Source: Natronomonas pharaonis DSM 2160 (lineage in GTDB: Archaea > Halobacteriota > Halobacteria > Halobacteriales > Haloarculaceae). From it: DNA of 64,000 bases. Below the pieces are notes generated by a model, which saw nothing but the letters and a program-made list of their open reading frames with translations, was not told the origin of the DNA and made no database searches. This document shows, piece after piece, positions 61,398-63,176 of this stretch. The stretch spans positions 2,480,001 through 2,544,000 of the forward strand of contig NC_007426.1 of the NCBI RefSeq assembly GCF_000026045.1, given 5' to 3'. Within the stretch, counting starts at the first letter, position 1. Each line of letters begins with the position of its first letter. Made by a program: the position numbers and the translations under genes.

Positions 61398-61568
61398 TCA
61401 GATGTAGTCGAGGAGGTAGGCGACAATGAGGACAGCGATAAGTGCGGCGACAAGCGGACCGAGCGACGCCAGTATGCTGATAAACCGTCCAACGACCTCC
61501 AAAACGAGGAGGATACCGACCAAAACGAGGACGATTTTCAGGAGAGTTTCGACATCAAGGTCGTTCAT
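61398..61568 (-). CDS. 56-residue small membrane protein
   Basis: The protein MNDLDVETLLKIVLVLVGIL continues into two hydrophobic helices (through VAALIAVLIVAYLLDYI) and ends at the membrane. It resembles DUF7554-type haloarchaeal small membrane proteins, although I am not certain. It is the first gene of the operon with thpR. Its upstream region carries the 31-bp tandem repeat at 61618-61699. Confidence 0.65.
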   Translation of the reverse strand: MNDLDVETLLKIVLVLVGILLVLEVVGRFISILASLGPLVAALIAVLIVAYLLDYI

Positions 61569-61617
61569 GGCGTATACTGGGCGTCTCGCGCGCAAAAGCG
61601 CTGTGGCCGTCAAGTGG

Positions 61618-61699
61618 GGGCCGTTGTAGTGGGGCCGTTGTAGTGGGGGACTGTTGGAGTGTGGGCCGTTGTAGTGGGGGACTGTTGGAGTGTGGGCCG
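61618..61699. repeat. 31-bp tandem repeat
   Basis: Two identical 31-bp units occupy 61632-61662 and 61663-61693, each starting GGGCCGTTGTAGTG and ending GACTGTTGGAGTGT. They are flanked by partial copies at 61618-61631 and 61694-61699. The plus strand has several runs of 3-5 G. It lies between the divergent small membrane protein gene and the argG leader. It could be slippage-generated or serve as tandem regulator sites. Confidence 0.85.
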
Positions 61700-61796
61700 C
61701 CAGAGCGACTATCGACAGCCAGAGATATGACAACACGACACGCTCGATGCCCCGTTCCGCAAGCGTTTAGTACTGCTCTGGAGAAAGCGACGATAC

Positions 61797-61886
61797 ATGA
61801 CACGGACCGACCGCACCGGCACGACCGCCGACAGCGGTGGGTCGCTCCTTCTTCGGCGACGGCGACGGGCCGTCAGGCCCGAATAG
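61797..61886 (+). CDS. Candidate arginine-rich leader peptide upstream of argG
   Basis: ATG 61797 to TAG 61886 encodes 29 residues, MTRTDRTGTTADSGGSLLLR then RRRRAVRPE, with 8 Arg including five in a row (CGG CGA CGG CGA CGG). TATA-like TTTAGTA (61766-61772) is 25-31 nt upstream, so the transcript probably begins at this ORF, 177 nt before argG. The Arg run overlaps two mutually exclusive hairpins. It may be an arginine-sensing leader; it may also be a chance GC-rich frame. Confidence 0.45.
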   Translation: MTRTDRTGTTADSGGSLLLRRRRRAVRPE

Positions 61887-61950
61887 TACCTACTTCACCC
61901 GTCGCGTTCGTTCCGACTCGATTGCCAACGAGAACCGTCCGGTTGACGGT
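61858..61950 (+). promoter_or_regulatory. argG: Hairpins in the argG leader region
   Basis: Three stems are visible. GACGG (61858-61862)/CCGTC (61870-61874) and CGGGCC (61866-61871)/GGCCCG (61876-61881) share bases and exclude each other. ACCGTC-CGGTT-GACGGT (61934-61950) lies 24 nt before the argG start. The first two coincide with the arginine codon run. There is no T-run after them. A second TATA-like AATAGTAC at 61882-61889 could give a shorter transcript. Confidence 0.4.
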
Positions 61951-61973
61951 ACTGCGTGCAGAACCCACTACCA

Positions 61974-63176
61974 ATGTCAGATAAAAACCGTGTCGCGCTC
62001 GCCTTCTCGGGTGGGCTCGACACCACGGTCTGTGTACCGCTGCTCGAAGAGGAATACGGCTACGACGAGGTCATCGGCGTCACCGTCGACGTCGGCCAGC
62101 CCGAAGCGGAGTTCAAGGAGGCCGAAGAAACCGCCGAGGCACTCGACCTCGAACACCACGTCGTCGATGCCAAGCCGGAGTTCGCGGAGCTGTGTTTCGA
62201 CGCCGTCCGCGCTAACGCCTCCTATCAGGGCTATCCACTCGGGACGGCGCTTGCCCGCCCGGTCATCGCCGAGGCCATTCTCGAGGTCGCAAAGGAAGAG
62301 GGCTGTTCGGGCGTCGCCCACGGCAGCACCGGCAAGGGCAACGACCAGCTTCGCTTCGAGGCCGTCTGGCGCGACTCCGACCTCGAAGTCATCGCACCGG
62401 TTCGCGAACTGGGGCTGACCCGCACGTTCGAACAGGAGTACGCCGAGGAGCGCGGGCTCCCCATCGAAGGCGGCGACGAGGGCAAATACAGCATCGACAC
62501 GAACCTCTGGAGCCGCTCCATCGAGGGGTCGGAGCTCGAAGAGCCCGGCTACGTCCCGCCGGAGGACATCTACGAGTGGACAACCGCGCCGACAGCCGAG
62601 ACGCTCGAAGTCGAGGTCGGCTTCGAGGACGGCTACCCGGTCAGCCTCGACGGCGAGAAACTGGAGCCGGTCGAGCTCATCGAGACGCTCAACGACCTCG
62701 CCGGCGACTACGGGGTCGGCCGCACGGACATTATGGAAGACCGGATGCTCGGGCTGAAGGTCCGCGAGAACTACGAACACCCCGCGGCGACGGTGCTCCT
62801 GAACGCCCACCAAGCGCTTGAGGACCTCGTATTGACGAAAGAAGAGCGCGCGTTCAAAAAGCAGGTCGACCACGAGTGGTCCGAAAAGGGGTATCAGGGC
62901 CTCGTGAACGCGCCGCTTGTCGACGCGCTCGAAGGCTTCATCGACGAGACCCAAGACCGCGTCACCGGCACGGTCACCATCCGTTTCGAGGGCGGCCAAG
63001 CCCGCCCGGTGGGCCGCGAGTCGCCCTACGCTGTCTACTCCGCCGAGGCCGCCTCGTTCAACACCGAGGACGTCACCGGCGGCATCGAACAAAGCGACGC
63101 GACCGGCGTCGCCAAGTACCACGGCTTCCAGGAGCGTCTCGCCAACCGCGTCATCGACGCCGCCGACGAGGAGTAG
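61974..63176 (+). CDS. argG: Argininosuccinate synthase
   Basis: ArgG condenses citrulline and aspartate using ATP in arginine synthesis. The 400-residue protein has the N-type ATP-binding motif VALAFSGGLDTTVCVPLL, VTVDVGQPEAEFKEAEE, YPLGTALARPVIAEAI, VAHGSTGKGNDQLRFE and the C-terminal VGRESPYAVYSAEAASF. The start at ATG 61974 gives MSDKNRVALAFSGG, as in related archaea. It is followed 4 bp later by argH, so the two share an operon. Confidence 0.97.
   Translation: MSDKNRVALAFSGGLDTTVCVPLLEEEYGYDEVIGVTVDVGQPEAEFKEAEETAEALDLEHHVVDAKPEFAELCFDAVRANASYQGYPLGTALARPVIAEAILEVAKEEGCSGVAHGSTGKGNDQLRFEAVWRDSDLEVIAPVRELGLTRTFEQEYAEERGLPIEGGDEGKYSIDTNLWSRSIEGSELEEPGYVPPEDIYEWTTAPTAETLEVEVGFEDGYPVSLDGEKLEPVELIETLNDLAGDYGVGRTDIMEDRMLGLKVRENYEHPAATVLLNAHQALEDLVLTKEERAFKKQVDHEWSEKGYQGLVNAPLVDALEGFIDETQDRVTGTVTIRFEGGQARPVGRESPYAVYSAEAASFNTEDVTGGIEQSDATGVAKYHGFQERLANRVIDAADEE

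Follow-up and report, generated by a model that had tools for sequence, protein, structure and literature searches.

We propose that the argG leader of Natronomonas pharaonis DSM 2160 acts as a ribosome-mediated arginine attenuator, a reading to which we give a probability of roughly 0.8 and which is built on sequence and its comparison across haloarchaea. Within the 64,000-nt stretch of DNA analysed here (contig NC_007426.1, positions 2,480,001 to 2,544,000, referred to as the window), a short upstream ORF (uORF) ending in rare arginine codons and followed by a hairpin lies ahead of argG. The elements of the leader are as follows.

61766..61772, + strand: TATA box TTTAGTA of the leader promoter (P1), read directly from the sequence.
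61797..61886, + strand: uORF, a candidate leader peptide of 29 codons (MTRTDRTGTTADSGGSLLLRRRRRAVRPE, then stop), from sequence and comparison.
61854..61868, + strand: arginine codon run CGG CGA CGG CGA CGG, the presumed sensor codons, from sequence and codon counts in relatives.
61866..61881, + strand: stop-proximal hairpin with a perfect 6-bp stem, CGGGCC-GTCA-GGCCCG, from covariation, stop position and the single match per genome.
61882..61898, + strand: G-poor, pyrimidine-rich tract 3' of the hairpin, from base counts in 75 leaders.
61899..61906, + strand: element Q, CCGTCGCG, complementary to part of the arginine run (GGCGACGG, 61855-61862), from the minimum free energy (MFE) fold and a swapped-pair test.
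61934..61950, + strand: hairpin E, ACCGTC-CGGTT-GACGGT, located 23 nt upstream of argG, from compensatory changes.
61974..63176, + strand: argG, argininosuccinate synthase, first gene of the operon, from NCBIfam NF010392/TIGR00032 above cut-off.

The initial annotation had described a 29-codon, arginine-rich ORF behind a TATA-like box and ahead of an arginine biosynthesis operon; its coordinates are borne out by direct reading of the sequence, and NCBIfam identifies the next gene, 87 nt beyond the end of the uORF, as argG. The eight arginines comprise the run of five that had been pointed out (R20-R24) and the three others (R3, R6 and R27). The uORF ATG (61797) lies 31 nt downstream of the first base of the TATA box, and the uORF is probably translated from a leaderless transcript. 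The uORF frame crosses the hairpin both in N. pharaonis and in its nearest relatives and stops a few nucleotides behind it; in N. pharaonis, the stop codon (61884-61886) has its first base 3 nt beyond the 3' arm. The hairpin motif was found once in the N. pharaonis genome (2,749,696 bases, three contigs), at the argG site, so that no regulon shares that motif. When positions 61500-62100 were scanned with Rfam 15, only a single chance match was returned, far under its gathering score, and a T-box or another Rfam family was ruled out for want of a covariance-model match in that scan. Just 5' of the leader promoter, at 61615-61700, there are short direct repeats, GGGCCGTTGTAGTGGGG and GACTGTTGGAGTGTGG.

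An arginine run means little by itself, because, of the 414 short ORFs listed mechanically for this GC-rich window, 5 contain five consecutive arginines; it gains significance because it is conserved among relatives. We aligned 80 argG loci from genome contigs and 18 from genus-mates at the argG start. An arginine-rich end was present in 81 of the 82 distinct haloarchaeal argG leaders with a called ATG ORF, and two further leaders beyond these 82 (L061 and L066), judged by eye, combine the stop-proximal hairpin with a GTG start. In one Haloarcula locus (L041), argG directly follows another gene and there is no leader. A TATA-like box was located 29-35 nt before the uORF ATG in 64 of the 82, and the length of the uORF is variable, mostly 22-49 codons. 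The arginine-rich ORF is therefore not missing from close relatives of N. pharaonis but extends far beyond the genus, and in the alignment the arginine run is kept while other codons drift. The initial reading of this region as an arginine-sensing leader thus gains support from the comparison across haloarchaea.

Arginine makes up 30% of the last 16 uORF codons, compared with 14% elsewhere in the uORF and 4.6% in argG; the other two frames of the same region reach 17% (+1) and 12% (+2), and shuffles at most 19%. At codons 4-10 before the stop, the 75 leaders contain 274 arginine codons, namely 222 CGA, 44 CGG, 5 CGC and 3 CGT, whereas among the arginine codons of argG in the corresponding genomes, CGA accounts for 2% and CGC for 70%; in the genes of the window, taken as a rough gene set, the CGA share is about 12%. 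Of the three reading frames across the 24 nt preceding the hairpin, that of the uORF holds all 222 CGA triplets, even though the hairpin occurs in two phases relative to that frame (16 and 59 leaders). The ORF caller scored arginine content when first picking the uORF frames, and the frame was for that reason rechecked by TATA spacing alone: in 58 of 59 leaders, an ATG chosen solely by its distance from the TATA box shares the frame of the CGA run.

These frame counts bear on the proposal that conservation acts on a nucleic-acid motif, such as a protein-binding site, an RNA hairpin or an sRNA-like element, with the ORF and its arginine run as a by-product of CGA/CCG repeats. The hairpin sequence is indeed nearly invariant in many species, and short ORFs with arginine runs are, as noted, not rare in the GC-rich window, but such a motif would account neither for the strict confinement of CGA to one frame across the phase shift nor for the ATG set in frame by the promoter; moreover, the stop codon at the hairpin is retained whether as TAG, TGA or TAA. 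We regard this explanation as very unlikely.

The remainder of the peptide behaves differently from its end. Among close relatives, differences in the N-terminal part of the uORF fall 71/82/73 at codon positions 1/2/3, an even distribution that implies no protein-level constraint, and mean amino acid identity is 56% there and 91% over the last nine residues. The C-terminal residues are conserved as RRPGR, RRPGL or RRAL before the stop, with the last two or three varying in step with the hairpin sequence. A basic C-terminal peptide conserved over many genera could point to a small arginine-rich protein working in trans. Such a protein is hardly credible here, given that half of it is unconstrained and its length variable, that synonymous codons are under selection, and that the ORF is strictly linked to argG. 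Rare in-frame arginine codons together with a drifting N-terminus are, on this comparative evidence, a leader-peptide signature, and what appears to count is translation and the rare arginine codons at the end, not the protein made. A short ORF does lie between the promoter and the first structural gene, and a run of codons for the end product, selected as codons, is found near its 3' end.

Codon choice also speaks to whether the peptide could be sensed instead of the codons. In fungi, the arginine attenuator peptide (the arg-2/CPA1 uORF) senses free arginine via the nascent peptide and has no arginine codon run; it resembles the haloarchaeal leader as an arginine-specific uORF before an arginine-pathway gene. 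By analogy, arginine or the nascent arginine-rich peptide might stall the ribosome at the uORF stop under arginine excess, and both the conserved C-terminal residues and the fixed place of the stop in the hairpin would suit this. A peptide sensor, however, needs no synonymous selection, which is strong here and favours CGA, not the CGC preferred in argG, and the last two or three residues vary and track the hairpin sequence. Unlike the fungal peptide, the argG leader conserves synonymous codon choice in its arginine run, and sensing of the fungal type, independent of codon identity, was rejected on this ground; peptide sensing in general we consider improbable.

The distribution of the leader was assessed with a covariance model built from the arginine run, the hairpin and the tract that follows. 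This model matched in 230 of 292 Halobacteria genomes and in 64 of 77 genera, nearly always once per genome, and each of the 51 matches that were checked (31 of the best and 20 weaker ones) lay before argG, 125-240 nt ahead of the argG motif. In a separate search of 1.97 Mb of flanking DNA on both strands, a hairpin of this kind preceded by at least two in-frame CGA codons occurred at 74 sites, 62 of them in an argG leader. Twenty genomes without a model match were checked, and all carry argG; in 18 of them a divergent ATG uORF with an arginine-rich end was found, and in another (L253) the same sequence with a GTG start was read by eye, which gives 19 of 20 with a divergent version. The exception (L263) has a distant argG without an arginine uORF. 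In Halorubrum-like genomes (L251-L258), the leader ORFs are longer, their 10-12 CGA codons fall into two clusters and the hairpin is arranged differently; by their sequence, these leaders are a divergent form of the argG leader.

The leader precedes a whole arginine operon, as judged from the gene order in Natronomonas sp. LN261 (L001), where argG is followed by argH, lysW/argW, an argX-like ligase, argC, argB and argD. Its promoter is the sole one in Natronomonas, Halosegnis, Halorarius and some others. In Haloferax, Natrialba, Halorubrum-like and other genomes (L012-L080, L244-L258), a second TATA box (GAATTTAA) is found about 30 nt before argG, a position suited to a leaderless argG mRNA. 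Because of this second TATA box, control by the leader could be bypassed in Haloferax/Natrialba-type groups, and the leader may govern only part of argG expression there.

Compensatory changes preserve the stop-proximal hairpin. Its arms read GGGCC/GGCCC in most leaders, GGCCC/GGGCC in Haloferax and others, GGGGTC/GACCCC in Halospeciosus (L057) and two further genomes (L261 and L262), and GGGCTC/GAGCCC in Natrialba swarupiae (L020) and Natrarchaeobius (L039). A MAFFT alignment of all 60 hairpins misplaced the 5-nt loops, and a cleaner set was taken for the model; in the clean alignment, 92% of cells are paired and five alignment cells show two-sided changes, four from G-C to C-G and one from C-G to U-A. 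None of 500 shuffles scored as high in covariation, and slid controls scored lower. In 62 of 75 leaders, the uORF stop begins 2-3 nt before the 3' arm, that is, in the loop/3' arm. Beyond the hairpin, the RNA of the 75 leaders is poor in G, which makes up 5% of positions 5-9 nt away and close to 0% of those 10-14 nt away.

The initial annotation had proposed two mutually exclusive stems overlapping the arginine run, and only one of them, at 61866-61881, proved to be conserved. The other, at 61858-61874 (GACGGC/GCCGTC), can form in N. pharaonis but is not kept in relatives, and it was discarded as a conserved competitor. A different pairing excludes the local hairpin, that between the arginine run and element Q, and in N. 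pharaonis it takes the place of the hairpin in the MFE fold of the leader. In the Natronomonas-type group, a leader's own arginine-run and Q segments pair far more strongly than shuffled ones and more strongly than segments swapped between leaders (p=0.003, relatedness not removed). The difference between own and swapped pairs was absent in the other leader groups, and the pairing was accordingly rejected as a universal feature; it is, from these comparisons, an alternative pairing of the Natronomonas/Halosegnis/Halorarius group only. Exclusive structures that involve the codon run thus have pairing support in that group and none in the others. A third stem before argG, likewise noted at the outset, is confirmed as hairpin E; it shows compensatory changes in three of six pairs (19 leaders) and sits 13-28 nt before the argG ATG in the group that has no second promoter. 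Neither hairpin E nor the arginine-run:Q pairing was found in most other clades.

Comparison establishes the anatomy of the sensor, from promoter and uORF to hairpin and argG; we infer that the uORF is translated, that ribosomes stall on it and that the switch turns on when arginine is short, along the following lines. Transcription would start at or beside the uORF AUG, and a ribosome would translate the leader peptide from the leaderless mRNA. With ample charged tRNA-Arg, mainly the reader of CGA, the ribosome would pass the arginine codons, terminate at or beside the hairpin and leave; the hairpin could then form, as could the arginine-run:Q pairing in the Natronomonas group, and the exposed G-poor RNA would favour loss of expression of argG and the downstream operon. 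Under arginine shortage, the ribosome would stall on the CGA codons and cover the arginine run together with the 5' arm of the hairpin, blocking formation of these structures and leaving the operon expressed.

How the leader would act on expression is less constrained, and factor-dependent termination and translational control of argG both remain. Behind the hairpin, no T run exceeds 2 nt in N. pharaonis or 4 nt in its group; with no U-run, there is no bacterial-type intrinsic terminator in N. pharaonis, and a strict terminator/antiterminator attenuator was ruled out, as a GC hairpin with a U-run is missing between uORF and argG. The missing U-run is also compatible with a purely translational output, in which the uORF senses arginine and the position or release of the ribosome sets argG translation or re-initiation while transcription is unaffected. 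Hairpin E, with covarying pairs close to the argG ATG, fits such an output, as does an argG that has no Shine-Dalgarno sequence and whose AUG stands behind a G-poor, A/C-rich stretch. Against it, the groups with a second promoter lack hairpin E yet retain the uORF and the stop hairpin, and the post-stop element that is most widely kept, the G-poor tract, lies near the uORF and not near argG. This output is a possibility to be taken seriously, if a tentative one, and we infer instead premature termination of the FttA/aCPSF1 type. Counted against the attenuator as a whole are the lack of a U-run, the restriction of the arginine-run:Q pairing and hairpin E to certain clades, the second TATA box, and some genomes without the leader (L041 and L263). 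To these may be added that argG is missing from the uORFs listed for long 5'-UTRs in a dRNA-seq study of Haloferax volcanii (PMC4983044).

The haloarchaeal argG leader shares with the bacterial attenuators a short ORF between promoter and biosynthetic operon, a run of end-product codons near the end of that ORF, hairpins overlapping the run and a peptide that is otherwise free to vary. Attenuation by leader peptides is a textbook mechanism in Bacteria, exemplified by the ribosome-mediated attenuators of his, leu, thr, trp and pheST/pheM in Enterobacteria. The argG leader differs from these in its archaeal TATA promoter, its apparently leaderless start at the uORF AUG, a stop that is usually inside the hairpin, the lack of a terminator U-run and, in some clades, a second promoter before argG. 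The likeness to a bacterial attenuator that had been suggested at the outset therefore holds for the sensor, while the output differs. Another parallel is offered by the bacterial leader peptides that govern Rho access (tnaC, mgtL and speF/orn34), in that the position of the ribosome on the uORF would control exposure of a G-poor, pyrimidine-rich RNA downstream. Archaea, to our knowledge, have no Rho; FttA/aCPSF1 is the archaeal factor with an analogous role. The tract in the argG leader is C/U/A-rich, unlike the U-rich RNA that FttA prefers. According to one published hypothesis, ribosome and FttA sterically exclude each other on the polymerase (PMC11616081), and the argG leader would offer a natural substrate for this competition.

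The initial annotation knew of no established translation-coupled leader for amino-acid operons in haloarchaea, and our literature searches, in which subscription papers, including older Haloferax trp work, were mostly outside coverage, likewise found no archaeal leader-peptide attenuator. We know of no demonstrated case of leader-peptide attenuation in archaea. As far as can be told, the argG leader would work like a bacterial attenuator while failing the strict test of an intrinsic terminator, in a domain in which such control is not established. In H. volcanii, uORFs of 15-31 codons were reported in long 5'-UTRs (Babski et al. 2016, PMC4983044), and the accessible parts of that study propose neither a regulatory role nor a codon logic for them, and describe translational control via structured leaders as not typical of haloarchaea.

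The same list includes a 26-codon uORF before pheS (Babski et al. 2016, PMC4983044), and for this reason pheS leaders were examined. An ORF with a phenylalanine run, for example MASEPYAGCTSREPAARPGFGFFFDA followed by a stop, precedes pheS in 22 of 28 class-wide haloarchaeal loci with a placeable start and in 9 of 16 Natronomonas loci; it ends in GFGFFFA[R/A] before the stop and has a TATA-like box (L265-L293, L163-L175). The H. volcanii uORF, as far as the list describes it, fits this phenylalanine leader (PMC4983044). At pheS of N. pharaonis itself (L162), no phenylalanine leader was found. In Natronomonas, a hairpin just 3' of the uORF stop varies in step, as judged by eye (GACGGGGT/ACCCCGTC, GACGACGT/ACGTCGTC and GACGGCGT/ACGCCGTC). 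The leader logic is thus seen with a second amino acid, and the haloarchaeal pheS leader matches the bacterial pheST/pheM system in both gene and amino acid.

These observations point to a class-wide regulatory leader for arginine biosynthesis and a parallel one for phenylalanyl-tRNA synthetase. On balance, we lean towards a general class of leader-peptide attenuators in haloarchaea, covering at least Arg at the arg operon and Phe at pheS, in which a leaderless uORF would serve as a sensor of tRNA charging with FttA-type termination or translational control as output, and which would have evolved separately from the bacterial systems, with no intrinsic terminator. The coupling of translation to expression in archaea becomes directly testable here in the model organism H. 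volcanii.

Further leaders were sought at chosen genes only. No tryptophan leader was seen before trpE, which is mostly inside operons, and no histidine leader was found before hisG. At a leuA-like gene (L208-L219), there is a conserved 21-codon ORF, MTQHEDTSxSxADRVLPGHxR before the stop, which has its own TATA box and overlaps the gene start, and the first 28 codons of the leuA-like frame include no ATG; this ORF is possibly a leader ORF, an alternative start or a frameshift. Upstream of a second HMGL-like gene (L221-L229), a conserved ORF of about 25 codons, MPN..AEDRVSRR.AAGREIRPL before the stop, ends shortly before the likely GTG start.
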